DNA of 64,000 nt from Frondihabitans sp. PAMC 28766 (GTDB lineage: Bacteria; Actinomycetota; Actinomycetes; Actinomycetales; Microbacteriaceae). The notes below the pieces were generated by a model. That model saw only the letters and a program-made list of their open reading frames with translations, did not search any database and had not been told where the DNA came from. Below are positions 30,836-61,829 of this stretch, in pieces; within the stretch, counting starts at the first letter, position 1; every line of letters starts with the position of its first letter. Location: NCBI RefSeq assembly GCF_001577365.1, contig NZ_CP014513.1:3720001-3784000 (forward strand), read 5' to 3'. The position numbers and the translations under genes are program-made.

Positions 30836-32230
30836 ATGACGTCCCTCCCCCTCGCGCGGCCCACCGTCCGCGACGGCGACCACGCACCGCGCGAGTCGAT
30901 CGCTCTCGCGACCGCCCTCTTCCTCGTCCTGTTCGGCGGCGACGCGCTGCGCAACTCCGTGGGCTGGACCGCGTGGGGGATCATCGCGGGGCTGCTCGCC
31001 GCGGCGTCGATCGTCGTCAGCGTCCGGCATCGGCTGCCGCTCAACAGGATCCCGTGGCCGCTGGTGGCGCTCCTTCTCACGATGGTGCTCTCGATCCTGT
31101 GGTCGGACTACCCGACGGGCTCCCTCCTGGGCGTCGGCTCGCAGCTCATGACCACGGCCGCGCCCCTGGCGATGGCGTCGACTCTCACCTGGCCGGCCAT
31201 CGTGAAGGCGCTGGGGCGGGCCCTTCGCATCATCGTGGTGCTGTCGCTGCTGTTCGAGCTGTTCGTGTCGCTCGTCGTGCGCCACCCGATCTGCCCGATC
31301 TACACCCGGTCGCTCTGCGTCGGGCACTACCCGGCCGCCTTCGACTGGAGCCGCGACAACCTCTTGCACGGCGGCCCCATCGGCGGTCTGCCCGGCAACA
31401 GCAACCTGCTCGCGATCTTCGCCCTTCTGGCCCTCGTCGTGACGGCCGTCGAAGCCGCCGACCGTTCGATCACGCGTGTGACCGCCTGGGTGGGGATCGT
31501 CTCTGCCGTACTCGCCTACGGCCTCACGCGGTCGTCGACCGTGCTGGTCTGCACCCTCGCCTGCGCCGTCGTCCTCGGCGTCGCCCTCATGATCCGTCGC
31601 AGCTCGCACCGGATGCGGCGCATGGTGTACCCCGCCGCCCTCGTCGTGATCCTGGCGCTCGCGGCCCTCGCGCTGGTCTTCAACAAGCCGCTGCTGCACC
31701 TGCTCGGCAAGAGCTCGACCTTCACCGGGCGGCGCACCATCTGGCAGAGCGTCTACGAGCTGGCCATCCAGAGGCCCGTCGCCGGCTGGGGCTGGACGGG
31801 CTGGTGGCAGCCCTACCTCGAGCCGTTCAAGGGCCTCGCCGTGCGGAACGGGGTCGTCTACCTGCAGGCGCACGAGGCGTACCTCGACATGTTCTTCCAG
31901 CTCGGCTGGATCGGCCTCGTCATCTTCCTCGCGGTGATCGTCAGCACCGTCGCCCGAGCCTGGTGGTGGGCGACCGACCGCCGCATGCTGGCGGCGGGCC
32001 AGCCTGCGAAGTGGTCGGCACGCGACCTGCTGCCGATCCTGCTGCTCGCGGTCATGCTCGTGCACGGGCTCGGCGAGTCACGGCTCAACGTCGAATGGGG
32101 CTGGGGTCTCTTGGTCGTGATCTGCCTGGTGACGCGCGTCGACTGGTTCCGGTGGTACGGCGGGCCCCCGCCACGCCAGAAGACCGCGACAGGCGACCCG
32201 ACGCCCACCAAGGCCGGGGCGACCACCTGA
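30836..32230 (+). CDS. O-antigen ligase/polymerase-like membrane protein (first copy)
   Basis: A 464-residue polytopic protein of the Wzy_C/O-antigen-ligase type, with about 10-12 membrane segments and a large periplasmic-side loop RHPICPIYTRSLCVGHYPAAFDWSRDNL..HGGPIGGLPGNSN. The catalytic-type Arg/His cluster (GRRTIWQSVYELAIQRPVAGWGW) is the usual ligase motif. It probably polymerises or attaches lipid-linked glycan outside the membrane. A paralogue follows 12 bp downstream; this copy has two loop cysteines that the other lacks. Confidence 0.82.
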   Translation: MTSLPLARPTVRDGDHAPRESIALATALFLVLFGGDALRNSVGWTAWGIIAGLLAAASIVVSVRHRLPLNRIPWPLVALLLTMVLSILWSDYPTGSLLGVGSQLMTTAAPLAMASTLTWPAIVKALGRALRIIVVLSLLFELFVSLVVRHPICPIYTRSLCVGHYPAAFDWSRDNLLHGGPIGGLPGNSNLLAIFALLALVVTAVEAADRSITRVTAWVGIVSAVLAYGLTRSSTVLVCTLACAVVLGVALMIRRSSHRMRRMVYPAALVVILALAALALVFNKPLLHLLGKSSTFTGRRTIWQSVYELAIQRPVAGWGWTGWWQPYLEPFKGLAVRNGVVYLQAHEAYLDMFFQLGWIGLVIFLAVIVSTVARAWWWATDRRMLAAGQPAKWSARDLLPILLLAVMLVHGLGESRLNVEWGWGLLVVICLVTRVDWFRWYGGPPPRQKTATGDPTPTKAGATT

Positions 32231-32242
32231 CACAATGAGTCG

Positions 32243-33586
32243 ATGACGATTCCCGACGACACGCGCGACCACTGGCGCCGCTACCTGTCGGCGTGGATCG
32301 GCTTCTCGGCCGGCGGTCAGTTCAGCCAGGCGCTCTCGGTCGCCATCGTCCTCTACGCGTTCGGCATCAACACGGTGCTGGCGCTGGTCAAATGGCCTGG
32401 GTCGCTGGCGATCCTGTCGACCCTCGTCGTGCTCGCCATCCTGTCGCTGGTCGGGGCGCGGCACCGCATCGAGTGGCACGGCCTTCTGCCGGTGTCGCTG
32501 ATCGCCCTCTTCGCCTACCTCGGCGCCAGCGTGTTCTGGAGCCAGTACACCTGGGTGTCGATCGGCGGCTTCTGCTATTCGCTGGCGTTCGGCATGCTGG
32601 GCATGTTCCTCGCGCTCAGCCGTGACCTCGTGCAGGTGATCCGTGCGATGGGCGACGCCTTCCGCATCCTGCTGGCCGTCTCGATCGGCCTGGAGGTGCT
32701 GAGTGGTCTGCTGATCGACACCCCCATCTCGTTCCTCGGCATCCAGGGCAACCTCGCGCACGGCGGGCCGATCCAGGGCATCGCGGGCACCCGCAACTTC
32801 CTCGGCTTCCTGGCCGCGATCGGCCTCGTCACCTTCGTCGTCGAGTGGCTGATGAAGTCGGTGACCTGGCCCGTCGCCCTCGCCAGCTCGGTGGGGGCCG
32901 CCGCCGTGGTGTTCTTCGCGTCGTCGCCGGTGACGTCGATCGCGATCGTGGTGCTGGTCATCGCGACGATCGCGCTCTGGATCCTCCGCCGCGCCCCGGC
33001 CGAGCGACGGCCCGTCGTGCAGGGGGTGCTGCTCGTGCTCGTGGTGACCGGGCTCGTGCTCGCCTATGTCAGCCGGGCCCGCCTCATCGCCGCCATCGGC
33101 GCGCGCTCCGACCTCAACACGCGCCTGTCCCTCTGGGGGGCCATGAGGCCCTTCATCGACCTGCACTCGATGATCGGCTGGGGGTACGTCGGCAAGTGGC
33201 CGAACGACATCATCCCGTTCGAATTCCTCACCGTGCCCGGCGGGCGGCCGTCGGCCTCCGGCCTCGGGGCGTTCTTCGACGCCTGGCTGCAGATCGGTGC
33301 GTTGGGCGTGATCCTGCTTCTGATCGCCGGCACGCTCGCCTTCCTGCGGGCCTGGACGACGGCGTCGAGCCACCCGATCGTCGCCTACGTGTGGCCGCCG
33401 CTCGTGCTGCTGCTGATCGCCGTGACTGACACGGCCGAGAGCTTCGTGCTCGACGAGGGCACGCTCATGGTGTTCGTCGCCATCGCCACGGTGTCGGCAC
33501 GCAAGAGGTCGTGGCGGTCCCGGCTCGCACCGTTGCCCGGGCGCACGGGGCCGACGCCGACTCTGCCCGGTGCGCGGGAGTCCTGA
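32243..33586 (+). CDS. O-antigen ligase/polymerase-like membrane protein (second copy)
   Basis: A 447-residue paralogue of the upstream gene with the same topology and loop motif (FLGIQGNLAHGGPIQGIAGTRN) and cytosol-distal motif DLNTRLSLWGAMRPFIDLHSMIGWGYVG. Twelve bases separate it from the first copy, so they form an operon. Two tandem ligases suggest that one polymerises and the other transfers to the wall, or that two polymers are made; the sequence does not decide. Confidence 0.82.
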   Translation: MTIPDDTRDHWRRYLSAWIGFSAGGQFSQALSVAIVLYAFGINTVLALVKWPGSLAILSTLVVLAILSLVGARHRIEWHGLLPVSLIALFAYLGASVFWSQYTWVSIGGFCYSLAFGMLGMFLALSRDLVQVIRAMGDAFRILLAVSIGLEVLSGLLIDTPISFLGIQGNLAHGGPIQGIAGTRNFLGFLAAIGLVTFVVEWLMKSVTWPVALASSVGAAAVVFFASSPVTSIAIVVLVIATIALWILRRAPAERRPVVQGVLLVLVVTGLVLAYVSRARLIAAIGARSDLNTRLSLWGAMRPFIDLHSMIGWGYVGKWPNDIIPFEFLTVPGGRPSASGLGAFFDAWLQIGALGVILLLIAGTLAFLRAWTTASSHPIVAYVWPPLVLLLIAVTDTAESFVLDEGTLMVFVAIATVSARKRSWRSRLAPLPGRTGPTPTLPGARES

Positions 33587-33619: not shown

Positions 33620-35677
33620 CTACTTCACGGTGACGGTCTGGCAGCCGAGCAGCGTGTGCCCTCCCCCGGCCGAGTCGAGCCCGTAGGCGCATACCCGATG
33701 CTCGCCCGCCGTCACCGTCTGCTTCGCCACGTAGCCGTGCAATGCCGACCGCAGCTTGTACGCGGCGGCGACATCGGGCCTTGCCGTCGACGCCTTCGCC
33801 ACCGACCCTGCCGCGTCGACGTAGATCGCAACCGAGATGGACGACGCGGTGTCGGGATCGAAGGCCCACCCGCGCTCACTCACCGTGGGCCCGGACACCG
33901 CGACGGAGTCGAGCCGGCCGACGGGCAGCCGGTCAGTGGTGACCGTCGTGCACGAGAGGAGCGCGTTCGACCCCGGCGTGCCCAAGACGTCGAGTCCGTA
34001 GACGCAGACCTGGTGCTTTCCCAGAGTGGTCTTCACGGTCGTCGCGAAGCCGTGAGCCGCACCGTAGAGCGGGTACGCGAGCGCGATGTCCGAACGGGCG
34101 GCCGAGGCGTTGGCGACGGCGGTGCCCTTGCCGTCTACGTAGACGGCCACGCGGGTCGAGGCCGTCGTGTCGCCATCGATTGCCCAGCCGCGCAGGCTGA
34201 TCGACGTCGGCGTGGTCGTGACCGACTCGACTTTGCCGGCCGGAGAGCTGCCGATGACGATGACCGTCTTGCAGCCCACCGAGGCGTCGGATCCGCGCCC
34301 GACGTTGATGCCCTGGACGCAGATGGTGTGCGTGCCCGCCGACGCCGCCACGACGGCCGCATAGCCGTGGGCAGAACCGAGACCCGGGTGCGCAGCAGCG
34401 ACATCCGGTCGGGAGAGCGCAGCCGTGATCGTCGTGGGCTTGCCGCCGTCGACGGTGACGCGGGCACCGATCGACGCGCTCGTCTCCGGGTCCGCAGCCC
34501 AGCCGACGACGCGGACGCCCGCCGGGGCGGCAGAGACGGAGTCCACGGATCCGATGGGCGAGGCCGACGTCACCGTCGCCGACGTGCACGAGATGGGCTG
34601 GGCTGTGCCCGCGGTCGCCCCGCCGGAGACACAGACGGCGTAGGTGCCCGCCGGTGCGCCGATCGTGCCGGAGAAGCCGTGCAGGGCGCCGGCCGCCGGG
34701 TAGGCCGCGCCGACGTCGGGCCGCGACAAGTTCGCCGTCAGGGTGCTGGCGGTGCCTGCCGCACTCACGACGACTGTGGCCGTCTTGGTCGGCGTCGTCG
34801 AGGAGAATGCCCAACCGCGGACGGTCAGCTGGCCGAGACCGCCCGTGACGGCGTCGACGTGACCGACGACGGGGTCGGATGCGACGATCGTCGGCGACCC
34901 GAACCAGTCGGTGAAGTACACCCAGAAATTGCGGTTGCCGTACGACGAGCAGCTGTCGCCCGTGCCCCGCAGGTTGGCGAGAGCCGCCGCGTTCGGGGTG
35001 TACGGCGTGTAGTAGTAGAGGTCGGCCGTGGCCTGGTTCTGGATGGTCACCCTGGCGACGCCGCAGGGCGAGTTCGGGCTGTAGGCGATGGACGCCGTCG
35101 TGCCAGGCTTGTAGGCGGTGAAGGCTGCCGACGTGCCTGCCGGATTCGCGTAGCGCTTGAACTGCCAGGCGGCCCAGTAGAGCTGGTTGTAGAGCCCACT
35201 GTAGGTCGTGTTGCACCCCGAGCCGTCCGGGCAGCCGTAGCCCATGGCGCGCGCCAGAGCCGTGGTCGAGGGCGCGGTCGCGGTGACGAGCCCCTGTTCT
35301 TTCTGCAGGGTCACGAGGAGCACACGCGGGTTGATGCCGCAGGCCGCGGCGACCTTGGCGATGATCTGCGACGCCGGCTCCGACGCCGCCCCGGTGTAGG
35401 CCGAGCACATGGCGTCGACCGATCGGCTCGCGGTCGTCTGCCGGTAGTCACTCAGACAGTTGGTGTTGCCGCAGGAGCCCTCCTTCTGAGCGAGAAAGGT
35501 CTGGACGGCCGACTGGGTCATGGCGGCGGAGTCGAAGAAGACGGCGTCGCTGACGATGTTGCCAGGGTTGAACGACGACCCGGAAAGCGTGGCCGCCGAC
35601 GCGGACTGCCCCAGCATCGCGGCCGCCAGGCCGCCGATGACGGCGAGGGCGACCGCGATGCCGAGTTGTCGCCTCAC
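33620..35677 (-). CDS. Secreted lysozyme-like protein with four copies of a ~100-residue repeat
   Basis: A 685-residue secreted protein: signal peptide (QLGIAVALAVIGGLAAAMLG ... ASA), then an actinobacterial lysozyme-like domain (about 28-270) with paired Cys motifs, the conserved ACGINPRVLLVTLQKEQGLV helix (Glu as likely catalytic acid), and YGNRNFWVYFTDWFG. The rest is four tandem repeats of about 100 residues (PxGxxDSV ... RGWAxDxDT ... RxDVxxAYP ... HGF ... CVYG ... C). The GTG start overlaps the stop of the upstream GH25 gene (GTGA), so both are one operon. Probably a wall hydrolase anchored by the repeats; substrate not proven. Confidence 0.75.
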   Translation of the reverse strand: MRRQLGIAVALAVIGGLAAAMLGQSASAATLSGSSFNPGNIVSDAVFFDSAAMTQSAVQTFLAQKEGSCGNTNCLSDYRQTTASRSVDAMCSAYTGAASEPASQIIAKVAAACGINPRVLLVTLQKEQGLVTATAPSTTALARAMGYGCPDGSGCNTTYSGLYNQLYWAAWQFKRYANPAGTSAAFTAYKPGTTASIAYSPNSPCGVARVTIQNQATADLYYYTPYTPNAAALANLRGTGDSCSSYGNRNFWVYFTDWFGSPTIVASDPVVGHVDAVTGGLGQLTVRGWAFSSTTPTKTATVVVSAAGTASTLTANLSRPDVGAAYPAAGALHGFSGTIGAPAGTYAVCVSGGATAGTAQPISCTSATVTSASPIGSVDSVSAAPAGVRVVGWAADPETSASIGARVTVDGGKPTTITAALSRPDVAAAHPGLGSAHGYAAVVAASAGTHTICVQGINVGRGSDASVGCKTVIVIGSSPAGKVESVTTTPTSISLRGWAIDGDTTASTRVAVYVDGKGTAVANASAARSDIALAYPLYGAAHGFATTVKTTLGKHQVCVYGLDVLGTPGSNALLSCTTVTTDRLPVGRLDSVAVSGPTVSERGWAFDPDTASSISVAIYVDAAGSVAKASTARPDVAAAYKLRSALHGYVAKQTVTAGEHRVCAYGLDSAGGGHTLLGCQTVTVK
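33623..34880 (-). repeat. Four tandem ~100-residue GW(A/T)xD wall-protein repeats
   Basis: Approximate units 34566-34880, 34246-34565, 33936-34245 and 33623-33935. Each shows G-x-x-D/ESV, a GWA motif followed by an acidic patch, R-x-D-V/I, HGF/Y and a conserved Cys pair near its end. The same repeat occurs three times in the neighbouring GH25 protein. Confidence 0.75.
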
Positions 35678-37661
35678 TTGACTGTGACTGTGACGCACTT
35701 CAGCGTGGGGTTGCTGCCCCCGCTGGTGTCGATCCCGTAGGCGCAGACGCGGTGCTTGCCGCTGGTCGTGGTGAGGGAGACCTTGTAGCCGTGCAGGGCA
35801 CCGGCACCCGCATAGACCTTCGCCACATCGGGGCGTGAGACGTTCGCCGTGACTTGTGCCCCCGCGGCGTCGACGTAGACCGCGACGCGCGTGGAGGTCG
35901 TCGGGGTGTCCTCGTCGATCGTCCAGCCGGTGGCTGTGATCGTCTTGCCCGAGACCGTCACTGAGTCGAGTCGGCCGATGGGCGGCTGGTTGACGACGAC
36001 CGTGCGGCACACGCCGAGCCGGGGGTTCGACGCAGCGGCGCCCACATTGATGGCGTACGCGCAGACGGAGTGCGTCCCCTGCTTTTCGGACAGAGTGACC
36101 GAGAAGCCGTGATTCGACCCGTAGTTCGGGAATCGCGCGCCGACATCGGCTCGGGCGGCGTTCGCGGTGGCCATTGTGCCCTTGCCGTCGACATACACGG
36201 CGACGTGGATCGGCGACGAGGTGTCTCCGTCGAGTGCCCAGCCCTTAAGGGTCACGGTCTTCGGGGTGGACGAGACAGAGTCCAAGCCGCCGATGGGGGT
36301 GGAGCCAGCCGAGGTGCCGGTGCCGCACTGTGACAGCAGGTCGTTCGAACCGGCGCCGACGTTGATGCCGTACACGCAGACCTTGTAGGCACCCTCCGCG
36401 GCGGGGATGACCGCGTCGAAGCCGTGCAGGGCGCCGTCCGCCGGATACTGGGTCGCCACGTCGGGCCTCGAGAGGTTGGCCTTCAGGTTGTAGCCCTTTG
36501 CACCCAGGTAGACAGCGACCCCGATGGAGCCCGTGGAGTTGGGATCGATCGCCCAGCCGCGCACTTCGATGCCGCCGGGAACGGTCGAGACCTCGTCGAC
36601 ACTGCCCTTCGGCGACTGCAGGCTCGCCGGGACAGCCAGCCCGGCGAGGGCGGTCGATCCGCCGTTGATGACGTCCTGGTCGCCGGGGAAGGCGCCCGCG
36701 TCGGCGTACTGCCAGATCGTCCAGCTCGACCAGCTCTTCGGAAGGGTGCCCGGGCCGGCCGACAGCGCGGGGCCGTAGTGGGCGATGAAGAGCGGGTTGT
36801 GGCCGAAGGCCGAGCTGTTGCCGGTGCACTTCGACCACCAGTCGGTCGTGGAGTAGATGGCCGGGTACCGGCCCGTCTCGGCGAAGACCTGGTTCGAGAA
36901 CGACGTGATCCAGTTGACCATCGCGCTCGCGCTCAGGCCGTAGCAGGTGTTCGTCCCGTCAGTGCTGGTGTAGGGGTCGTACTCGATGTCGAGCAGCGGG
37001 GCAGCGTCTTGCCGTCAGCTGTCCACCCACCTCCGTTCTTGACCAGGTAGTCGGCCTGGACCGCGCCCGACGACTTGTTGGGCACGGCGAAGGCGTAGGC
37101 CCCGCGAACGATGCCCGCGGCGGCGGCGCCGGCGTACTGGCTCGCGAAGGTGCTGCTCTTGTAGGTGCTGCTCTCGGTCGCCTTGATGTAGGCGAACCGC
37201 GCGCCGTTCGAGTAGGCGCCTTTCCAATTGACGGTCCCCTGCCAGGCGCTCACATCCATGCCGAGCACCTGCGAGCTGGACGCCGAGGCGTTCGGTGTCG
37301 CGAGCAGGGAGTGGAGCTTCGGAGCGGCCGTCGTGGCCTCGTTGACCGGGACAGTCGAGCCCATGGCGTGATCGCCGGCGGCGTTCTGCGTCGCGAGCGA
37401 AGGGTTGTCGCCCTGGGTCGCCGTCCCACTGGTCGTGCCGGGCGTCGTCGTGCTCGGCGTCGCAGCAGGCGCCGGTGCCGCCGTCGCGGTCGCAGTTGCG
37501 GTCGCGGTCGGAGCAGCTGTGGCGGTCGGAAGAGCCGTCGCAGTCGAAGCAGCCGAAGACGACACGGTCGACGTCGCCGCAGTCGCGGATGCCGCGCCAA
37601 GGGCCGACACGGCGCTGACGGCGATGAGGACGCCGACGACGACGGGCGCCAGACGAGACAT
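35674..37661 (-). CDS. Secreted GH25 muramidase with three copies of the same repeat, frame broken by one base
   Basis: About 662 residues when repaired. Signal peptide (LAPVVVGVLIAVSAVSALGA), a long Ala/Thr/Pro linker (about 30-105), a GH25 domain starting LGMDVSAWQGTVNWKG (catalytic Asp) with YIKATESSTYKSS and the DxE pair in LLDIEYDP, then three ~100-residue repeats as in the downstream gene. The frame breaks at GGGG 36998-37001 (CCCC on the coding strand) inside LPPLLDIE; one more base restores it and the total is an exact codon multiple. GH25 enzymes cut N-acetylmuramyl bonds, so this remodels peptidoglycan. Confidence 0.8.
35677..36620 (-). repeat. Three tandem ~100-residue repeats in the GH25 protein
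   Basis: Approximate units 36303-36620, 35990-36302 and 35677-35989, each homologous to the four repeats in the adjoining lysozyme-like gene (PxGxxDSV, GWAxD, DV, HGF, paired Cys). Confidence 0.75.
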
Positions 37662-37920: not shown

Positions 37921-38955
37921 TCAGAGCAGCAGCCGTTCGACCTCTCGACGCCGCGATGAGGCAACGCCGTCGCGACGTCGCGCAGACAGCGAATGACGCA
38001 CCAGACCGGGCAGCCGACCGAGTACCCGGCCCCAGCTCGGTCGGTCGATGTAGGCGTTGCGGGGGCGCACGAAGTCCGCGACCAGCCGAAGAGCGGTGCG
38101 CGCTGCGACTCGCGCGATCATGGACGGCGAGCCGTTGCGCACCACGACGGCCAGGCGATTCGTCATGCTCTGGCTGCGCACGAGCGTGCCGTTGCTCGAC
38201 GAGCTCGCGGCGTGCCGGTGCACTACGACGGCATCGGCGGCGAGCGCTATGCGGTAGCCGGCGAGGCGGAGGCGCCACGCCACGTCGACGTCCTCGTAGT
38301 ACATGAAGAGCGCAGGATCGAAGCCTCCTACGGCTTCGAGCGCGCCGCGTCGAATGAAGACGGCCCCGCCCGAGAAGCCGAACGGGTCCGGCCGAGAGAG
38401 GTCGTGCGACGCGAGGTCGCCCTCGACCGGCGCAAGCCAGTCGCGATCGAAGCCGTTGCCGTCGCGGGTGAGCTCGACACCGGTGCCGTTGAGCAGGGCT
38501 CTGCCTGTCTCCCCGTCTCGGACCCGGCGCCATAGGCGTCCGTCGAGCCCTACGAGGGTGTCGGAGTCGCGATCGACGGCCGGGACGAACTGCCCTTCGA
38601 GGATCACTGCGCCCGCGACCGCAGCGACGTCGCCGCCAGCACCCTGCAGAGCCTGGATCCCCGCTTGGAGGAAACCCGGCTCGACGACCGCGTCATTGTT
38701 GACGAGGACGACGACGGGCGCGTCGGACTCCCGGATGCCGCGATCGACGCCGCCGGCGAAGCCGGAGTTCTCGCGCACCTCGACCACCGTGACTGCGCCC
38801 AGATCGGAGAAGTCGGGGGCGGCACCCGGCGCGACCTCGTTCTCGACGACGACCACGTCGAATCCTGAGGCCGTCTGCTGTTTCATGAGAGCCGCGACGC
38901 ACCGCCTGGTGAGCTCGGGTTGATGCCAGTCGACGACGATCACGGAGGCGCGCAT
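37921..38955 (-). CDS. GT2-family glycosyltransferase (rhamnosyltransferase-like)
   Basis: A 344-residue GT-A enzyme: ASVIVVDWHQPELTRRCV, VRENSGFAGGVDRGI, VVVLVNNDAVVEPGFL (metal-binding NDA), and the acceptor motif FGFSGGAVFIRRGALEAVGGF-type followed by YYEDVDVAWRLRLAGY. Such enzymes extend surface polysaccharides with rhamnose or galactofuranose. Rhamnose donor genes rmlA/rmlC lie in the same locus. Divergent from the large GT gene across about 115 bp. Confidence 0.85.
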   Translation of the reverse strand: MRASVIVVDWHQPELTRRCVAALMKQQTASGFDVVVVENEVAPGAAPDFSDLGAVTVVEVRENSGFAGGVDRGIRESDAPVVVLVNNDAVVEPGFLQAGIQALQGAGGDVAAVAGAVILEGQFVPAVDRDSDTLVGLDGRLWRRVRDGETGRALLNGTGVELTRDGNGFDRDWLAPVEGDLASHDLSRPDPFGFSGGAVFIRRGALEAVGGFDPALFMYYEDVDVAWRLRLAGYRIALAADAVVVHRHAASSSSNGTLVRSQSMTNRLAVVVRNGSPSMIARVAARTALRLVADFVRPRNAYIDRPSWGRVLGRLPGLVRHSLSARRRDGVASSRRREVERLLL

Positions 38956-39071
38956 CCGACCATTCTGTCGGACGCCGATCCTCTCGACGCCGACCAGCCC
39001 TCCGGGTTCGTTCGGAGACGGCTGACTATAGTGAGAGCGCCCATCGCGGGCCGATCCCACCTGTCACCAAC

Positions 39072-41654
39072 GTGTTGGAGCATTTCGCCTTGTCAGTTTC
39101 CACGTCGAGCGTCGTCTCCGTCGTCATCGTCAACTTCCGAGGCACCGACGACACCCTCGAGTGCGTCGCACGGCTCAACGACGTCGACTGGCCGGCCGAG
39201 CAGCTCGAGATCGTCATCGTCGAGAACGGCTCCGGCGACGACAGCGAGACGCGGCTGCGCGCGGCCCTCGGCGAGCAGGAGAACGTCACCCTCATCGTCT
39301 CGAAAGAGAACCTCGGGTTCACCGGCGGAAGCAACCTCGGCGCCGAGAAGGCCCGCGGCGAGTTCGTCGCCTTCTTGAACAACGACGCCAAGCCCGGTGC
39401 CGACTGGATCCGGGGCGCTCTCGGCCAGTTCGCGGTCAGCCCGAGAGTCGCCGCCGTCGGCAGCAAGGTGCTCGACTGGGACGGCAAGGCGATCGACTTC
39501 GTGCAGGGCAGCCTGACCTGGTTCGGCATGGGCTACAAAGACCGGGTCACCGAGATCGACACCGGCGAGTTCGACACCCCCCGCGACATCCTGTTCGGCA
39601 CCGGTTCGGCGCTGTTCGTGCGCAAGGCGATCTTCCACGAGGTGGGCGGCTTCGACGAGCGTCTCTTCATGTTCTACGACGACGTCGACCTGGGCTGGCG
39701 CCTCAACCTGCTCGGCTACCGGGTGCGCTTCGCCCCCGAGTCGGTCGTCTACCACAAGCACCACGGCTCGATGAAGAGCTTCGGCGAGTACCGCGAGATG
39801 TACCTGCTCGAGCGCAACGCGCTGATCCTGCTCTTCAAGAACCTCGACGACGAGAGCCTGTCGCGGTTCCTGCCCGGCGCCCTCGCTCTCCTGGCGCGTC
39901 GCGCCGTCGCGAAGAGCGGGCTCGACTCCGAGATGTTCGACATCCGCCGCTTCACCGGCGCCGAGGACGAGTTCGAGCGCGACACCCCCGTGAACAAAGA
40001 CACGGTGGCCGGTCTCTTCGCCCTCGACCAGTTCGTGCAAGAGCTGCCGTCGCTGCAGCAGACCCGCGACGAACTGCAGGCCCGGCGCCAGCGCACGGAC
40101 GGCGACCTCTTCCGGCTCTTCGGCGACATCTTCAAGCCGCTCTTCTCGGACGCCTACTTCCTCGACGGACTGCACTCGATCGTCGACGCCTTCGGGATCC
40201 GCGAGCACACCGAGCGCCGTCACATCCTGGTGATCACCGGCGACGCCATCGGCGAGAAGATGGCCGGCCCCGCCATGCGCGCGTGGAAGATCAGCGAGGC
40301 GCTGTCGCAGCAGAGCGACGTGCGCCTGCTCACCTGGAACGTCGCCAACCGCAAGTCGGATCTCTTCGAGGTCGACCGGGTGCGCCTCCAGAACGAGCGC
40401 GAGATGAAGGACCACGAAGAGTGGGCCGACGTCATCATCTTCCAGGGCCATGCGCTCCACCACTTCACGACGCTGAAGCACTCCACCAAGATCATGGTCG
40501 CCGACCTCTACGACCCGATGCACCTCGAGCAGCTCGAGCAGGGCCGCGAGTGGGGCCTCGCGCAGTGGAAGAACCAGGTGCAGTCGGCCACCGACGTGCT
40601 CAACGAACAGCTGCTGCGCGCCGACTTCTTCCTCTGCGCCTCCGAGCGCCAGCGCCTGTTCTGGCTGGGCCAGCTCGCGGGCCTCGGGCGGATCAACCCC
40701 GAGAACTACGCGGCCGAAGAGAACCTCAACAACCTCATCGCCATCGCGCCGTTCGGCATGGACTCGACGCCTCCCGTCCACACGCGCAAGGCCATCCGCG
40801 GCGTGGTGCCCGGCATCTCGGACGACGACAAGGTCGTCATCTGGGGCGGCGGGCTCTACAACTGGTTCGACACCATCACGCTGGTGCGCGCGATCGCGCA
40901 ACTCGCCGAGCGTCGCCCCGACGTGCGCCTGTTCTTCCTCGGCGTGGCGCACCCGAACCCGGACGTGCCCGAGATGGCCATCGTCGCGAAGACCCGCGAG
41001 GAGGCCCGCCGCCTCGGCGTCTACGACAAGAACGTCTTCTTCAACGAGCAGTGGGTGGCCCTCGACGACCGCCAGAACTACCTGCTCGAGGCCGACGCGG
41101 GCGTCAGCACGCACTACGACCACATCGAGACTCAGTTCTCGTTCCGCACCCGAATCCTCGACTACATGTGGGCGAACCTGCCCATCGTCACCACCCGCGG
41201 CGACAGCTTCGGCGACCTCGTCGGCGCCGAGGGCATGGGTGTCTCGGTGCCCGAGCGCGACGTCGACGCCCTGACCGACGCCCTCGAGAAGATGCTCTAC
41301 GACGAGAAGGCGGTCACGGCCGCGCGGCAGGCCGTCGGCCGCGTGCGCCAGGACTTCACCTGGGAGAATGCACTGGCTCCGCTCGTCGAGTTCTGCAACG
41401 ACCCGCAGCCCGCTCCCGACCGGGCCGCGACCATGCAGTCGTCCGCCGCGGCCGTCGTGGTGCGGCAGCGCGTCCGCAGCCCGCAGACGAGCGAAGAGAA
41501 GTTCCACGTGATCGCGAACAGCCGCCACGGCCTCGTCCGCGACCTCAACCTGGCCCGCTGGTACCTCACCGAGGGCGGCGGCGTCAGCCTCCTGCAGAGC
41601 AAGGTCAAGAACCGCCTCGCGACGACCCGCGCCAGCAAGTACGGCAAGGACTGA
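39072..41654 (+). CDS. Bifunctional GT2-GT4 fusion glycosyltransferase
   Basis: An 860-residue two-domain enzyme. Residues 12-260 are a GT-A/GT2 domain (VSVVIVNFRGTDDTLECV, FLNNDAKPGADWI, FMFYDDVDLGWRLNLLGY). Residues about 385-770 are a GT-B/GT4 domain (HILVITGDAIGEKMAGPAMR, KVVIWGGGLYNWFDTITLV, YDKNVFFNEQWVALDDRQNY, FSFRTRILDYMWANLPIV). It could add two consecutive sugars. The GTG start at 39072 has no strong ribosome site; a TTG at 39090 is an alternative. Intact, but a very long antisense frame exists on the other strand. Confidence 0.85.
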   Translation: MLEHFALSVSTSSVVSVVIVNFRGTDDTLECVARLNDVDWPAEQLEIVIVENGSGDDSETRLRAALGEQENVTLIVSKENLGFTGGSNLGAEKARGEFVAFLNNDAKPGADWIRGALGQFAVSPRVAAVGSKVLDWDGKAIDFVQGSLTWFGMGYKDRVTEIDTGEFDTPRDILFGTGSALFVRKAIFHEVGGFDERLFMFYDDVDLGWRLNLLGYRVRFAPESVVYHKHHGSMKSFGEYREMYLLERNALILLFKNLDDESLSRFLPGALALLARRAVAKSGLDSEMFDIRRFTGAEDEFERDTPVNKDTVAGLFALDQFVQELPSLQQTRDELQARRQRTDGDLFRLFGDIFKPLFSDAYFLDGLHSIVDAFGIREHTERRHILVITGDAIGEKMAGPAMRAWKISEALSQQSDVRLLTWNVANRKSDLFEVDRVRLQNEREMKDHEEWADVIIFQGHALHHFTTLKHSTKIMVADLYDPMHLEQLEQGREWGLAQWKNQVQSATDVLNEQLLRADFFLCASERQRLFWLGQLAGLGRINPENYAAEENLNNLIAIAPFGMDSTPPVHTRKAIRGVVPGISDDDKVVIWGGGLYNWFDTITLVRAIAQLAERRPDVRLFFLGVAHPNPDVPEMAIVAKTREEARRLGVYDKNVFFNEQWVALDDRQNYLLEADAGVSTHYDHIETQFSFRTRILDYMWANLPIVTTRGDSFGDLVGAEGMGVSVPERDVDALTDALEKMLYDEKAVTAARQAVGRVRQDFTWENALAPLVEFCNDPQPAPDRAATMQSSAAAVVVRQRVRSPQTSEEKFHVIANSRHGLVRDLNLARWYLTEGGGVSLLQSKVKNRLATTRASKYGKD

Positions 41655-41744: not shown

Positions 41745-42701
41745 ATGACCACGACCACGACCACGACGGCGTTCACCCCCCTCGGTGACGAGCCGGACCC
41801 GGTCAGCGCCGCCCGTTTCGCGCGGCTCAAGGATGAGCCGCTCGTCGTCGCGGGCCAGCCGACCGGCGCCTTCGCCGGCCGCATCGGGATCATCCGCGAC
41901 ATCTTCGCGCACCGCAGCCTGCTCGATCTCCTCGTGCGCCGCGACCTCAAGTCGCGCTACAAGGACAGCGCGCTCGGCTTCGTCTGGACCCTGATCCGCC
42001 CGATCACCCAGCTGCTGATCTACTACGTGATCCTCGGCCAGGTGCTGGGCGCCGCCCGCAACATTCCCGAGTTCGCGGTCTACGTCTTCTCCGGCCTGAC
42101 GGTCTACAACCTCTTCAGCGAGATCATCGGCGGCGCCACCGGCTCGATCGTGGCCAACGCCGGGCTCATCAAGAAGGTCTACGTGCCGCGCGAGATCTAT
42201 CCGCTCGCCAGCATCGGCTCGGCGATGTTCAACTTCGGCATCCAGATCATCGTGCTGCTCGCGGCAACGGCCGTGACCGGCCAGTTCCCGATCCACCTGG
42301 GCCTGCTCTACTTCTTCCCATCGACGCTGCTGATCCTGATCTACGGCACCGCCTTCGGCCTCCTGCTCGCCGCTGCGAACGTCTACCTGCGCGACATGGG
42401 ATACCTCGTCGAGGTGCTGCTGATGCTGCTGATGTGGGGCTCGCCCATCGTCTACGCCTGGGCGACCGTGGCTGCGCACGCCAAGCACTTCGGCCTCCTG
42501 CTGTCCATCTACACCGACAATCCGATCACCCTCGCCGTGCTCGGCTTCCACCGGGCGTTCTGGGTCGCCGGCCCCGACAACAACTACCCGAACGACATGC
42601 TTCTGCACATGATCGTCGCCGGCGTCATCGGCCTCGTGCTGATCGTCGTCTTCCAGCGCGTGTTCTCGCGCCTCCAGGGCAACTTCGCTCAAGAGCTCTA
42701 G
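41745..42701 (+). CDS. wzm: Wzm-type polysaccharide ABC exporter permease
   Basis: A 318-residue permease of the ABC2/Wzm family with six membrane segments; the N-terminal amphipathic region ends RRDLKSRYKDSALGFVWTLIRP, a motif of polysaccharide exporters, and AGLIKKVYVPREIYPLASI follows TM2. It exports lipid-linked glycan together with the Wzt ATPase encoded 17 bp downstream. The N-terminus is a threonine run. A short terminator and possible promoter precede it, so the exporter operon may start here. Confidence 0.88.
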   Translation: MTTTTTTTAFTPLGDEPDPVSAARFARLKDEPLVVAGQPTGAFAGRIGIIRDIFAHRSLLDLLVRRDLKSRYKDSALGFVWTLIRPITQLLIYYVILGQVLGAARNIPEFAVYVFSGLTVYNLFSEIIGGATGSIVANAGLIKKVYVPREIYPLASIGSAMFNFGIQIIVLLAATAVTGQFPIHLGLLYFFPSTLLILIYGTAFGLLLAAANVYLRDMGYLVEVLLMLLMWGSPIVYAWATVAAHAKHFGLLLSIYTDNPITLAVLGFHRAFWVAGPDNNYPNDMLLHMIVAGVIGLVLIVVFQRVFSRLQGNFAQEL

Positions 42702-44032: not shown

Positions 44033-45160
44033 ATGAAACTGGCCGTCACCGCAATGGTCCGCGACGAAGCGGACATCATCCGACAGTGGGTCGACTACCA
44101 CGTAGCCCAAGGCGTCGACGTCATCCTGGTCACCGACAACGGGTCGATCGACGGCACGCGCGAGATCCTGCAGAGCTACGCCGACCGAGGCCTCGTCGAT
44201 CTCCGCGACGAGCCCGTGCAGATGAAGCAGCAGGGCCAGCTGGTCACCGGGATGGCGCGCGAGGCATCGTCCCGCTACGGTGCCGACTGGGTGATCAACG
44301 CCGACGCCGACGAGTTCCTGATGCCCGTCGATCGCAGTCTGCGGCTGCGCGACGTGTTCGAGAGGCTCGACCCGGCACTGGCCGCGTTCACCGTGCCGAT
44401 CGTCAACATGGTCGGCAGGATCGCGAGGTCGGGCGCCGGCATCGATCGCCTCGTGTGGCGCGACGAGCGCACGAACGACGAACTGCAGCAGCGGGGTGTA
44501 CTCGCCCAGCCCACGCCGAACGCGATCCATGTCGGCTCGCCCGACGTGACCGTCGTGCAGGGCAACCACCTCGTCAGCATCGGCAGCCAGGGCACTCCCC
44601 CGCCCACCCTCGCCCTCGAGGTCATCCACCTGCCGTGGCGCTCGTGGAAGCAGCTCGACAACAAGGTCGAGATCTCGGGGCGGGCCTACGACGCGAACCC
44701 CGACTTGGCGCCGAGCCCCAACCACCACGGCATGCTCGACTATCGCCGGCACCACGACGGCACCCTCTTCTTCTACTACGCCCTGCGAATGGTCACCGAC
44801 GACGAGGCCGAAGCCGGCCCCTTCCGTCTCGACCGCAGCCTTCCCGACTTCTTCGACTCCCTCGAGCACGAGGGCGCCCCCTACCCGGCCGACCACCCCT
44901 ACGCGGTCGATGCCGGTAAGGCCGCGTCCCGCGCGGGCGAGATCATCCTCTCGCGCGACCGAGAGCTGCGGCGCGAGCGTGATGAACGCCGTGTCGAGGC
45001 TGCGGGCGCGCAGCAGCGCGTCCTCGAGCTCGAACGCCACACCCGCGGCCTCGAGGCCGAGAACGCGCGGATCACGGCCGAGCTCGACGCCACTCATGCG
45101 CGCAAGGTCGTCCGCCTCGCGGACGCGCTGGGCAGCGCGGCGCGGCGCGGCCGCCGGTGA
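44033..45160 (+). CDS. GT2-like (Glyco_tranf_2_4) transferase with C-terminal coiled coil
   Basis: A 375-residue protein with a GT-A-type domain (VTAMVRDEADIIRQWVDYH, VTDNGSIDGTREIL, WVINADADEFLMP as the metal motif) typical of Glyco_tranf_2_4, found near Wzt in capsule loci. Residues about 295-365 form a charged heptad coiled coil (RELRRERDERRVEAAG ... LEAENARI), which may hold it to a partner or the membrane. Sugar specificity unknown. AGGAGCACC lies upstream of the ATG. Confidence 0.8.
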   Translation: MKLAVTAMVRDEADIIRQWVDYHVAQGVDVILVTDNGSIDGTREILQSYADRGLVDLRDEPVQMKQQGQLVTGMAREASSRYGADWVINADADEFLMPVDRSLRLRDVFERLDPALAAFTVPIVNMVGRIARSGAGIDRLVWRDERTNDELQQRGVLAQPTPNAIHVGSPDVTVVQGNHLVSIGSQGTPPPTLALEVIHLPWRSWKQLDNKVEISGRAYDANPDLAPSPNHHGMLDYRRHHDGTLFFYYALRMVTDDEAEAGPFRLDRSLPDFFDSLEHEGAPYPADHPYAVDAGKAASRAGEIILSRDRELRRERDERRVEAAGAQQRVLELERHTRGLEAENARITAELDATHARKVVRLADALGSAARRGRR

Positions 45161-53818: not shown

Positions 53819-54671
53819 GGAGGTTCTGCAGGTAGACGCCGTAGCCGCTCTTCGCGAGCGGGGCTGCAAGCGCCTCGAGGGCCGCGTCGTCGATCCAGCC
53901 GTTGCGCCAGGCGATCTCTTCGATGCAGCCGATCTTGTGGCCCTGGCGATCCTCGATCACGCGGACGTACTCGGAGGCCTGCATCATCGACTCGAACGTG
54001 CCGGTGTCGAGCCACGCCGTGCCGCGGTCGAGCACCTGCACCTGCAGCTTTCCGTCGGCGAGGTAGCGCTCGTTCACGGTCGAGATCTCGAGTTCGCCGC
54101 GGGCGCTCGGCTTGATCGACTTCGCGATCTCGACGATCGAGTTGTCGTAGAAGTAGAGGCCGGGCACCGCGTAATTGCTCTTGGGCTCCTTCGGCTTCTC
54201 TTCGATCGAGACGGCCTTGAAGTCGTCGTCGAAGTCGACCACGCCGTACCGGTGCGGGTCGGAGACGTGGTAGGCGAAGATCGTCGCGCCGTCGACCTCG
54301 GTGTTGCTCTTGAGGTTCGAGCCGAGGCCGACACCGTGGAAGATGTTGTCGCCGAGCACGAGGGCGACGCTGTCGCCCGCCAAGAACTCCTCGCCGATGA
54401 TGAACGCCTGCGCGAGGCCGTCGGGCGAGGGCTGCGCGGCGTACTCGATGCGCATGCCGAGGCTCGACCCGTCGCCGAGAAGCTCGCGGAACTGCTCGTT
54501 GTACTCAGGCGTGGTGATGATCAGCACCTCGTTGATGCCGGCCATCATCAGGGTCGACAGGGGGTAGTAGACCATCGGCTTGTCGTAGATCGGCATGAGC
54601 TGCTTCGAGACGCCCTTGGTGATCGGCCAGAGGCGCGAGCCGGTGCCGCCCGCGAGGATGATGCCCTTCAT
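53808..54671 (-). CDS. rmlA: Glucose-1-phosphate thymidylyltransferase
   Basis: A 287-residue nucleotidyltransferase: [11 protein letters not shown] (8-18), [26 protein letters not shown] and ISTVNERYL match RmlA. It makes dTDP-glucose from dTTP and glucose 1-phosphate, the first step to dTDP-L-rhamnose. ATG 54669-54671 overlaps the rmlC stop (ATGA). rmlB and rmlD are not in this window. Confidence 0.96.
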
Positions 54672-55303
54672 CGGCCTGTCTCCTTCGGCGACGCAGCCGC
54701 CTTCTCGTTGAGCGACGCATAGTACGCGCGCATGTCGTCCCACGTGGGCACGAGGCCCGATGCCGCGGCCTCGGCGAGCGAGGGGGCGTCGGTGTCTTTC
54801 GGCGAGAGCAGCGGCTCGCCGGCCTCGTCGGGGAAGACCAGGGCGACGTCAGGATCCAAAGGGTTGATGCCGTGCTCGCGGGGCGCGTTGAAGACGTCGG
54901 TCACCAGGTAGCTCACCGTGGCGTCGTCGGTCAGCGCGACGAAGCAGTGGCCGAGGCCCTCGGCGATGTAGATGGCGCGGCGATCGGTTCCGTCGAGCAG
55001 CACGGAGTCCCACTGCCCGAACGTCGGCGAGCCCACGCGGATGTCGATGACGTAGTCGAGCACGGCACCGTGGGTCGCCGTCACGTACTTGGCCTGGCCG
55101 AGCGGCACGTCGGCGAAGTGGATGCCGCGCACGACGCCGCGCTTCGACACCGAGGTGTTCGCCTGCCGGAGGTCGATCGAGTGCCCCACGGTCTCTTCGA
55201 GACGGTCGAAGCGATACCACTCGAGGAACACGCCGCGGTCGTCACCGAACTGCTTGGGGGTGATCTCGTAGCTGTCGGGAATCTTCAGTTCGCGGATCTG
55301 CAC
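54668..55303 (-). CDS. rmlC: dTDP-4-dehydrorhamnose 3,5-epimerase
   Basis: A 211-residue cupin epimerase: [18 protein letters not shown], the catalytic-His region [17 protein letters not shown], catalytic Asp in [15 protein letters not shown], and [17 protein letters not shown]. Third step of dTDP-rhamnose synthesis. Translationally coupled to rmlA. Divergent from the CWB2 gene across 281 bp. Confidence 0.93.
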
Positions 55304-55584
55304 GCCGGAAGCCTAGCAAGAGCGCCGACGCGGCCCCGAGCTTCCCCCTTCCTGCGGCCGTCACCGGCGGCAGCGTCGCAAACCTGCAGCTCGGCTCGGA
55401 TGCGGCTTCACAGCGCTGTTGCGACCACGACCCCCGTTCGGGGGCGATGTGCCTAATCCTGCCTTCGATGTACCGTGAGCCCGTCGCAGGTCCAGGGGGA
55501 TCACTGGTGAAGGGCCGCGGCATCCGATCACTCTGCACACCGCGTTCCCTCGGTCGTCGCCACCACTCCGAGGAGAGCACTGCC
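55304..55584. other. Divergent promoter region of rmlCA and the CWB2 operon
   Basis: A 281-bp spacer that must carry promoters for both directions. The ribosome site GAGGAG (about 55570) belongs to the rightward gene. I see no gene or strong palindrome in it. Confidence 0.4.
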
Positions 55585-59911: not shown

Positions 59912-59993
59912 GGCGATCGGGCTTCGAGATAGGCGATACTGAATCGAGTACCGGCCTCCGCGTGGGGGCATCGGGGGACGCCGGGGAGGCACC

Positions 59994-61829
59994 ATGACGC
60001 GCATCGTTGCGCCCACCAGTTCGCTGCGACTTCGACTCGCGGGGGCGATGGCTCTGGCCGTCGCTCTGGCTGCCGGAGGGGGCGCCGTCTCGGCGAGCGC
60101 CGCCCCCGCGACCAGTACGGTCGAGACACCGGCTGACGGCGGCCATTCGATGGGCTGGTCGATGCCGGCCGGCCCGCAGGTGGCCGCGCCGTCGGTGCGA
60201 AGCCGCGACGCGGCCGCCGCCTCGGGTGGATCGTCGCTGCCGGTGCAGGGGATGGACGTCAGCTCGTACAACGGCGACGTCGACTGGGCGGCTGCGAAGA
60301 ACGCCGGCAAGCAGTTCGCCTTCGTCAAAGCCAGCGAGGGCACGACCATCACCAACGAGAACTTCACCCAGCAGTGGACGGGGTCGGCCACTCTCGGCTA
60401 CCACGGCGCGTACGCCGTCGGCAGCCCGGGGATCTCGTCGGGCACGTCGCAGGCCGACTACTTCGTGAAGCAGGTCGAGGCCGGAGCACGAGTGACGTCG
60501 TGGTCGGCGCTCGGCGCCGTCCTCCCGCCCGTGCTCGACCTCGAGAACGGCGCCACGACGGAGTGCTGGAACCTGACGCAGGCCCAGATGGTCGCCTGGA
60601 TCCAGTCGTACGCCGTCGAGATCCTCGCGAAGACGGGCCAGAACGTCTCGATCTATTCCAACCCCTCGTGGTGGAGCGACTGCACCGGCAACAGCGGCGG
60701 CTTCGGCATCTCGCCGCTGTACATCGCGCGTTACACGACGGCCGCCACGCCCAATCCGCTGCCGTCCAGCTGGTCGGCCTGGAGCTTCTGGCAGTACGAG
60801 AAGCCCACCGGCAACGCAAGCCCGACAAGCTACGACTTCGACGCGTTCAACGGCAACATCAGCCAGCTCGCGAGCATGACCACGACGAGTGCCGCTTCGC
60901 GTCTGGCTGGAACCAATCGCTTCGCCACAAGCGCCGATCTGTCTGCATCGACGTTCTCGCCGTTCGCCGCGGGGCAGGGCACCGTCTACATCGCCAGCGG
61001 TCTGAGCTACCCCGACGCGCTAGCTGGTGGCGCCCTCGCGGGTCACCTGGATTCCCCCGTGCTGCTCGTGACGTCGACCGCGGTTCCCCCCGCGACCCAG
61101 GCGGAGCTGACCCGCCTCGATCCTGCCCGCATCGTGATCCTCGGCGGCACCACCGTGATCACACCGGCCGTCCAGACGGCGCTTCAGCAGTACACCCAGG
61201 CCCAGAGCGCCCCATTCGTCACGCGCCTCGCCGGCAGCAACCGCTTCGTGACGAGCGCCGACATCGCCACGGGCTTCACGACCACCGGCGGCGTCGTCTA
61301 CCTCGCCACCGGGCTCGCCTACCCCGACGCCCTCTCCGGCGCCGCCGTCGCAGCCGAGTCCGGGGCCCACAGCGGCCCTCTCATGCTCGTCGCGCCCAAC
61401 GGCATCTCGACCGCCGTCGCAGCCCAGCTCACCCGGCTCAAGCCGAGCAAGATCATCCTGTTGGGCGGAACATCGGCGGTTTCGACGACCGTGGCCAGCC
61501 AGGCGGCGAAGTACGCCCCGACCGTGACGCGATTCGCGGGCACCACCCGCTACAACACGAGCGCGCTGATCTCGTCCTCCACGTTCCCCAGCAGTACGCC
61601 TCCGACCACGGTGTACATCGCCGTCGGCACCAACTTCCCCGACGCCCTGTCAGGTGCACCCGTTGCCGGTCTGGCCGACTCGCCGGTGCTCCTGGTCACG
61701 TCGACGGGCATCCCCACCCTCGTCGCGCAGGAGCTCCACCGCCTGAAACCTCAGTCGATCGTCGTGCTCGGCGGCACGTCGGCGATCTCGACCGAAGTCG
61801 AGGCTCAACTCGACGGGCTCGCGCGCTAG
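59994..61829 (+). CDS. Secreted GH25 muramidase with three CWB2 repeats
   Basis: A 611-residue secreted enzyme. Signal peptide (LRLRLAGAMALAVALAAGGG ... ASA), GH25 domain (about 80-295) with GMDVSSYNGDVDW (catalytic Asp), FVKASEG, the DxE pair in PPVLDLENG, and SWSFWQYEKPTG. Then three CWB2 repeats (RLAGTNRFATSADLS, RLAGSNRFVTSADIA, RFAGTTRYNTSALIS). Cuts peptidoglycan glycan strands while bound to the wall. GGGGAGG precedes ATG 59994. Unlike the GH25 protein at 36 kb it has CWB2 rather than the GWA repeats. Confidence 0.92.
   Translation: MTRIVAPTSSLRLRLAGAMALAVALAAGGGAVSASAAPATSTVETPADGGHSMGWSMPAGPQVAAPSVRSRDAAAASGGSSLPVQGMDVSSYNGDVDWAAAKNAGKQFAFVKASEGTTITNENFTQQWTGSATLGYHGAYAVGSPGISSGTSQADYFVKQVEAGARVTSWSALGAVLPPVLDLENGATTECWNLTQAQMVAWIQSYAVEILAKTGQNVSIYSNPSWWSDCTGNSGGFGISPLYIARYTTAATPNPLPSSWSAWSFWQYEKPTGNASPTSYDFDAFNGNISQLASMTTTSAASRLAGTNRFATSADLSASTFSPFAAGQGTVYIASGLSYPDALAGGALAGHLDSPVLLVTSTAVPPATQAELTRLDPARIVILGGTTVITPAVQTALQQYTQAQSAPFVTRLAGSNRFVTSADIATGFTTTGGVVYLATGLAYPDALSGAAVAAESGAHSGPLMLVAPNGISTAVAAQLTRLKPSKIILLGGTSAVSTTVASQAAKYAPTVTRFAGTTRYNTSALISSSTFPSSTPPTTVYIAVGTNFPDALSGAPVAGLADSPVLLVTSTGIPTLVAQELHRLKPQSIVVLGGTSAISTEVEAQLDGLAR

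Follow-up and report, generated by a model that had tools for sequence, protein, structure and literature searches.

An immunoglobulin-like repeat on two neighbouring secreted proteins of Frondihabitans is a candidate module for targeting a wall glycan

In a stretch of 64,000 nucleotides from Frondihabitans sp. PAMC 28766 (contig NZ_CP014513.1, positions 3,720,001 to 3,784,000; hereafter the window, numbered from its first base), two overlapping minus-strand genes encode seven copies of a repeat of about 100 residues. The array follows a GH25 muramidase domain in one gene and, in the other, a domain that we call ND. On balance we lean towards the interpretation that this repeat, which is predicted to have an immunoglobulin/fibronectin type III-like (Ig/FN3-like) fold, is a secreted, non-covalent targeting module that would bring GH25 and ND to the wall glycan made and exported by the same locus. 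Four computed results speak to this: the repeats themselves, their predicted fold, the exchange of modules on ND, and a statistical link to glycan loci. From these we infer that the repeat binds, what it binds, that ND is an enzyme and what the arrangement is for.

Results

Seven related repeats in two genes

Gene 1 (33620..35677, minus strand) encodes a signal peptide, ND (∼240 amino acids) and four Ig-like repeats, while gene 2 (35674..37661, minus strand) encodes a signal peptide, a GH25 domain (from 37262) and three Ig-like repeats. The first-pass annotation of this DNA had reported a repeat of about 100 residues in seven copies, four in one gene and three after a GH25 domain. All seven were recovered, each 101-106 residues long and on the minus strand: repeats 1 to 4 of gene 1 lie at 34559..34870, 34244..34558, 33926..34243 and 33623..33925, and repeats 1 to 3 of gene 2 at 36298..36612, 35983..36297 and 35677..35982. 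Similarity was above chance in 21 of 21 pairs, with 34-56% identity in local alignments and scores 17-52 standard deviations over those of shuffled copies. The motifs given for the repeat (PxGxxDSV, a GW(A/T)xD-type motif, R-x-DV, HGF/Y and two late cysteines) also hold, with few small departures: copy 1 of gene 1, the most divergent, opens with VVGHVDAV and reads GWAFS, and in one window copy RSDI stands at the R-x-DV position.

Twelve columns are invariant across the seven window repeats, including G19 W20, R50, D52, H64 G65, C80 and C96, and the strongest columns among 378 repeats from 79 loci were W, C, C, H, F/Y, D and R. Both arrays are C-terminal, with nothing encoded beyond them. The closest relative of a window repeat was in the other window gene for four of the seven copies and in the counterpart from Frondihabitans sp. 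Leaf304 for the remaining three; repeat 4 of gene 1, for instance, shares 56% identity with repeat 3 of gene 2 and 51% with its Leaf304 counterpart.

A known fold in a family without a name

AlphaFold2 gave a confident model in which each repeat is an Ig/FN3-like sandwich of two sheets and about seven strands, and the predicted rod of the array resembles fibronectin and adhesin extender regions. (A single-sequence fold of gene 1 was poor, with a pLDDT of 36.1, and was not used.) No Pfam or NCBIfam model matched the window repeats at E up to 10, a range in which the HMMER filters drop most matches above ∼0.1; the Ig-like Pfam models Big_7, Gmad2, Y_Y_Y and fn3 gave no match at E up to 10, and neither the repeats nor the whole proteins had a Pfam match to CWB2 (PF04122), LGFP, LysM or SH3/GW repeats. 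Likewise, solved structures yielded no significant sequence match to a profile of the seven repeats or of the whole protein, and no description of the Ig-like repeat or of ND was found, by title and start of abstract, in the open-access library searched. The model thus places the repeat in a known fold, and its family is without a name. The earlier suggestion of an undescribed domain survives as far as Pfam and NCBIfam families go, but the predicted fold is an ordinary one. The window repeats share this general fold class with the Ig-like Pfam models, and three distant repeats (L026, L027 and L030; L numbers are our own labels) match Gmad2, Y_Y_Y or Big_7 weakly or near the cut-off, which is consistent with an Ig-like origin.

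A phage origin of the array was considered and rejected. With tblastn, the three-repeat array found no match in 50,697 phage records, a scan of viral contigs with array peptides gave no confirmed relative, and a degenerate DNA pattern for GWALDPDT hit three viral stretches, none of which scored as a repeat. In PHROGs, three endolysin families match the GH25 part of gene 2 from residue 2, and one endolysin stretch reaches residue 183, into the first repeat; the remaining PHROGs matches had E above 0.009. The list of fold matches for gene 1 covered residues 268-685 only. A fold search among viral proteins returned mainly fn3-type matches, including a Microbacterium phage tail protein, and these fold-level matches reflect a common fold only. 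A Microbacterium phage protein named Hydrolase (A0A386KKK0) was also among the fold-level matches, with no sequence kinship as far as tested.

The repeat is exchanged for wall- and sugar-binding modules on ND

We compared the C-termini of ND proteins at 80 loci from 80 genomes of the same family (Microbacteriaceae). Twenty loci came from the 46 repeat-positive genomes and were chosen for the repeat; the other 60 represent one locus per repeat-negative genome, taken from genomes high among the matches listed. Labelled by similarity to reference C-termini, 20 of the 80 carried the Ig-like repeat, 21 an unnamed repeat, 13 LGFP, 7 CWB2, 4 CBM_4_9 and 2 FG-GAP, leaving 9 with other C-termini and 4 with none. 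Pfam scans of the ten reference proteins confirmed LGFP, CWB2, CBM_4_9 and FG-GAP. Three of the seven CWB2 proteins were scanned and all three also had LGFP, and seven of the nine 'other' proteins gave DUF4214 (four, one of them just at the cut-off), PG_binding_1 (two) or LysM (one). LysM and PG_binding_1 are peptidoglycan-binding modules, and CBM_4_9 is a sugar-binding one. With these modules and CWB2 found on ND, the Ig-like repeat occupies the place of known wall- or sugar-binding modules.

The clearest swap is between L247 and L092, in which ND is 81% identical over 226 positions and the C-termini are unrelated. GH25 shows the same within the window, where it occurs once with the Ig-like repeat and once with CWB2: a second GH25 enzyme (59943..61829, plus strand; PF01183, PF04122) has three CWB2 modules in place of the repeat. 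On a quick ND tree, at least 32 module changes were needed, 12 of them for the Ig-like repeat, against a mean of 50.1 for shuffled labels. The first-pass annotation had regarded the repeat as a targeting module and an analogue of CWB2; that idea gains support from its replacement on ND by CWB2, LGFP, LysM, PG_binding_1 and CBM_4_9, but has to accommodate carriers that are not wall enzymes (see below).

Three further features of the ND proteins were seen along the way. The unnamed C-terminal repeat (VYLV-type; L195, L209, L213, L221 and others) is the commonest module in repeat-negative ND loci, with 21 of 60, and Pfam named nothing over the cut-off in the two such proteins scanned. ND-DUF4214 fusions (L241, L255, L270 and L280) also have phycobilisome-linker matches, one of which is over its cut-off. 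Finally, a single ND protein, L064, combines three Ig-like repeats with three CWB2 modules.

Repeat-bearing ND genes lie in surface-glycan loci

To quantify the genomic setting we used as markers 15 in-frame genes of the window out of 17 picked (those at 24851 and 51900 were left out). Nine of the 17 were scanned with Pfam, eight of which fitted a family and one of which (32243-33586) had none, and eight were named by eye. All 20 sampled repeat loci, from 20 genomes and 15 genera, had at least three glycan markers (range 4-8), and all 20 had a homologue of the window's ABC-2 permease. By comparison, 20 arbitrary regions from 13 genomes contained no marker in 17 cases and one in three, and 20 regions around M23 hydrolase genes contained none in 18 cases and one in two, so that 0 of 20 reached three markers in either set. 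The M23 regions were taken one per genome from the best-ranked M23 genes listed, skipping short contigs, and both control sets are free of ND and of the Ig-like repeat.

The association extended to the named loci, some of which are shortened by contig ends: 70 of 79 reached three markers, 62 of 79 had the permease and four of 79 had no marker. Among those with at least 20 kb of sequence, the counts were 59 and 52 of 62. In 18 loci from Cellulomonas, Cellulosimicrobium, Sanguibacter, Blastococcus and Modestobacter, genera which we take to lie outside Microbacteriaceae, 15 reached three markers and 10 had the permease (three order-level loci from metagenome-assembled genomes were omitted).

ND loci of the 60 repeat-negative genomes reached three markers in 36 cases and had the permease in 21. 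Among them, 5 of 12 LGFP-type loci reached three markers, as did 0 of 4 with ND alone. These four module-less copies had no marker nearby, and each of the same four genomes holds another, longer ND frame ∼5-12 kb from a permease. A close permease homologue was present in 33 of 46 repeat genomes versus 32 of 104 others (Fisher p 5e-6), with counts made by hand at a threshold (E up to 1e-70) picked after the list had been viewed. Both the glycan-locus link, as a conserved rule, and the module exchange on ND are new relative to the first-pass annotation.

The window itself holds several glycan genes. An O-antigen ligase-like membrane protein (Wzy_C; PF04932, E 1e-15) is encoded at 30836..32230 on the plus strand. 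Upstream of gene 2 and on the same strand lies a family 2 glycosyltransferase gene (37921..39060, minus strand), followed by plus-strand genes for a two-domain glycosyltransferase with GT2 and GT1 domains (39072..41654), the ABC-2 permease, a probable glycan exporter (41745..42701), and a Glyco_tranf_2_4 glycosyltransferase (44033..45160); the three glycosyltransferases were assigned by Pfam. A dTDP-4-dehydrorhamnose 3,5-epimerase (PF00908) is encoded at 54668..55312 on the minus strand.

Carrier proteins and distribution of the repeat

Homologues of gene 1 are numerous, with 3876 among 7987 scored proteins at E up to 0.001, and carry source names such as 'Hemagglutinin' or hypothetical; all of the 120 best homologues have four to eight repeats. 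A profile of the repeat matched 24 of 396 phylum-wide genomes and 46 of 150 genomes of the same family, the genome of the window being counted in both.

We scanned 20 other repeat-bearing proteins with Pfam, mostly from the phylum search and representing 19 genes (L017 = L040). Seven of them, or six genes, have a wall-lytic domain: CHAP, M23, or Amidase_3 with Glucosaminidase. Another two are ND proteins, of which one has CWB2. The remaining 11 have GH43, M10, CAP, DUF4185 (two), fn3, a PD40 beta-propeller, a glycosyltransferase or no clear family; in the glycosyltransferase-linked protein (L033) the repeat is marginal, L021 has sub-threshold Pfam matches only, and L015 and L003 have no significant family. 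The repeat is thus not confined to wall hydrolases. The earlier observation that it is attached to differing peptidoglycan-cutting domains is borne out and broadened, with GH25, Amidase_2, CHAP, M23 and Amidase_3 now among its carriers. Individual carriers include L015, in which five repeats follow a cysteine-rich N-terminal domain with no Pfam match, and L026 and L027, from 1.7-1.8 Mb genomes of the same phylum, in which Amidase_3 and Glucosaminidase are combined with three distant repeats ∼150 residues apart. The genome of the window encodes a third repeat protein, L003 (G000:C1:2089271-2089897), with two copies at its end; no Pfam family stands out for the N-terminal part, and about 95 residues at the start of the open frame seem to be read out of frame.

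The named loci contain thirteen further repeat-bearing open reading frames. Ten were scanned, giving six Amidase_2, one GH25, one second ND protein and two without a Pfam match. As both GH25 and Amidase_2 partners carry repeats, the array is common to enzymes of the same locus that cut different bonds. We also asked how closely the arrays within a locus resemble each other, in a set made up of the further repeat reading frames and gene 2 of the window. For 11 of 13 partner arrays, the ND array of the same locus was among the seven best of 80 (ranks 3, 1, 1, 3, 3, 22, 4, 7, 6, 17, 1, 1 and 3); the L190 entry and one of two L162 entries probably represent fragments of broken genes. Kinship may account for much of this agreement, and we regard the matching as weak support for arrays being matched within their own locus.

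ND and the broken frame of gene 2

ND (34871..35590, minus strand; protein residues ∼30-269) is mainly helical; close to where one helix ends, at protein residues 126-127, it has an invariant Lys-Glu. A search with ND by itself found it in 139 of 150 genomes of the same family, including genomes of 1.3-1.8 Mb. ND is therefore a near-core domain of secreted proteins without a Pfam family: 40 members gave no meaningful Pfam match, and there was no PDB profile match. The domain preceding the four copies had been called lysozyme-like. A distinct N-terminal domain is indeed present there, but its identity as a lysozyme was not confirmed by Pfam, PDB profiles or hhalign. In the last of these, the invariant Glu of ND came into register with the SLT Glu at a probability of 0.1%, too low to identify ND as an SLT domain. 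Nor does PF01832 identify ND; it is almost missing in related genomes, with hits in 2 of 40 that all stay below the cut-off. 'Lysozyme-like' is kept as a lead, and ND as a probable, unproven wall hydrolase.

The TGA stop codon of gene 2 and the start codon of gene 1, a GTG, overlap in the four-base sequence GTGA, and the two genes are therefore likely to be translationally coupled. Gene 2 itself is interrupted, a feature missing from the first-pass annotation. Its N-terminal half is in one frame, which starts at 37661, enters GH25 at 37262 and stops at 36933, whereas the C-terminal half with the repeats is in a different frame, from 35674 to ∼37014. The break thus lies within ∼36933-37014, inside the catalytic domain and near a short C run. 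The C-terminal part of the GH25 domain still matches PF01183 (E 8.1e-13). The counterpart in Frondihabitans sp. Leaf304 (L113), which likewise encodes GH25 and three repeats, is uninterrupted, and its GH25 domain is matched in full. The break may be a sequencing error or a real loss.

Discussion

A proposed role and its alternatives

In the mechanism that we propose, the GH25 muramidase and the ND protein, a putative hydrolase, would be secreted, and their arrays would bind the exported glycan of the locus after its attachment to the wall. Cutting would thereby be confined to the glycan-bearing wall, where the glycan is attached, presumably to let the glycan through or anchor it, to release it, or to remodel the wall locally. 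Across strains, the array would be one of several interchangeable C-terminal modules of ND, along with CWB2, LGFP, CBM_4_9, LysM, PG_binding_1 and others.

Instead of the glycan of the locus, the module could bind a general component of the wall, such as peptidoglycan or a common polymer, with clustering due to co-regulation or joint transfer. That LysM and PG_binding_1, generally known as peptidoglycan binders, replace the repeat in some ND proteins, and that the repeat occurs in other lineages and on other enzymes, would fit such a ligand. Yet glycan loci accompany 20 of 20 repeat-type ND genes, 5 of 12 of the LGFP type and 0 of 4 genes for ND alone, by markers that are biased to the window's glycan class, and the repeat goes with one class of permease, at the threshold chosen post hoc (33 of 46 versus 32 of 104 genomes); we consider a general wall ligand rather unlikely. 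Less probable still is that the array is a stalk or spacer without a ligand of its own, an Ig-like rod that keeps the catalytic domain at a given distance from an anchor or lets it extend through the wall. The predicted rod is similar to fibronectin and adhesin extender regions, copy number varies from four to eight among the 120 best homologues, and the repeat is found on unrelated secreted proteins. Both window arrays, however, are C-terminal and leave nothing beyond them to hold the protein, the modules that replace the repeat on ND are known for binding walls or sugars, and a ligand site might lie at the conserved W, H, R, D and aromatic positions. We think it improbable that the repeats serve as adhesins for external polysaccharides, from plants, fungi or elsewhere, on enzymes that attack other cells. 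GH43 on some repeat proteins, CBM_4_9 on some ND proteins and strain names of relatives such as Leaf304, which suggest leaf isolates, agree with it, but GH25 and Amidase_2 enzymes cut peptidoglycan, the genes belong to the strain's own glycan locus, and ND is also found in family members with small genomes (1.3-1.8 Mb).

Several observations weigh against our preferred explanation, targeting to the locus glycan. Ig/FN3 folds often act as spacers. Only 7 of the 20 other repeat proteins are wall-lytic, as might be expected if the repeat generally held proteins at the surface or served as a spacer, and ND has no recognised catalytic family. Related ND domains tend to carry the same module (32 changes on the ND tree, the shuffled mean being 50.1), and well-supported branches force only 2 of the 12 changes for the Ig-like repeat. 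To our knowledge, FG-GAP and DUF4214 are not established as wall-binding modules. As the markers derive from the window's own repeat-type locus, glycan loci of the other modules are undercounted. Moreover, a close permease is present in 32 of 104 repeat-negative genomes, which shows that the exporter can do without the repeat. Finally, the matching of arrays is confounded by kinship and includes broken-gene pieces.

Targeting to the locus glycan can be extended into a plug-in system, which we put forward tentatively and with some doubt. Near-universal ND and its partner hydrolases would be re-fitted with whichever module recognizes the current glycan of the strain, so that the module would read out glycan type; the Ig-like repeat would be the plug for one class of ABC-exported glycan, and arrays on two enzymes of the same locus would stay matched. 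Few proteins that read the surface glycans of Microbacteriaceae are known to us. With an unnamed, widespread repeat that marks enzymes of glycan loci and is swapped with known wall-binding modules on a single conserved domain, it becomes directly testable whether module type predicts glycan type. If true, this would point to a role for the thousands of proteins currently named 'hypothetical' or 'hemagglutinin', and the repeat could yield strain-specific wall probes.

Comparison with known systems

Three systems offer parallels. AtlE of Enterococcus faecalis is a GH25 enzyme encoded in the EPA decoration locus, with GW or DUF5776 repeats at its C-terminus; it digests walls of its own strain, those of another strain very poorly, and walls without decorations not at all (PMC12208459). 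The loci of genes 1 and 2 likewise place a hydrolase gene within a wall-glycan locus, and the pairing of a constant catalytic domain with a variable C-terminus is matched by ND, a putative enzyme. In contrast to AtlE, whose repeats are SH3-related, the window repeats are predicted to be Ig/FN3-like; the range of modules is wider here, the main protein has ND without a GH25 match, and the module sits on two enzymes.

YccB of Lactococcus combines GH25 with an Ig-like YjdB domain and is encoded beside the cwps operon, and its protein type tracks polysaccharide type strongly, if not completely (PMC10675428). The likeness to gene 2, of a GH25 enzyme with an Ig-like domain whose gene adjoins a cell-wall polysaccharide operon, is one of domain content and gene position. 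CWB2 proteins of C. difficile bind the wall polymer PSII, and there, too, tandem wall-anchoring modules belong to proteins encoded beside a likely polymer locus (PMC4973711). CWB2 replaces the Ig-like repeat on ND and, within the window, on GH25; the two have no sequence match, and PSII binding has been shown for CWB2 proteins, whereas for the Ig-like repeat it is our proposal. Taken as an analogy of position and design, the window system would work like AtlE and YccB.

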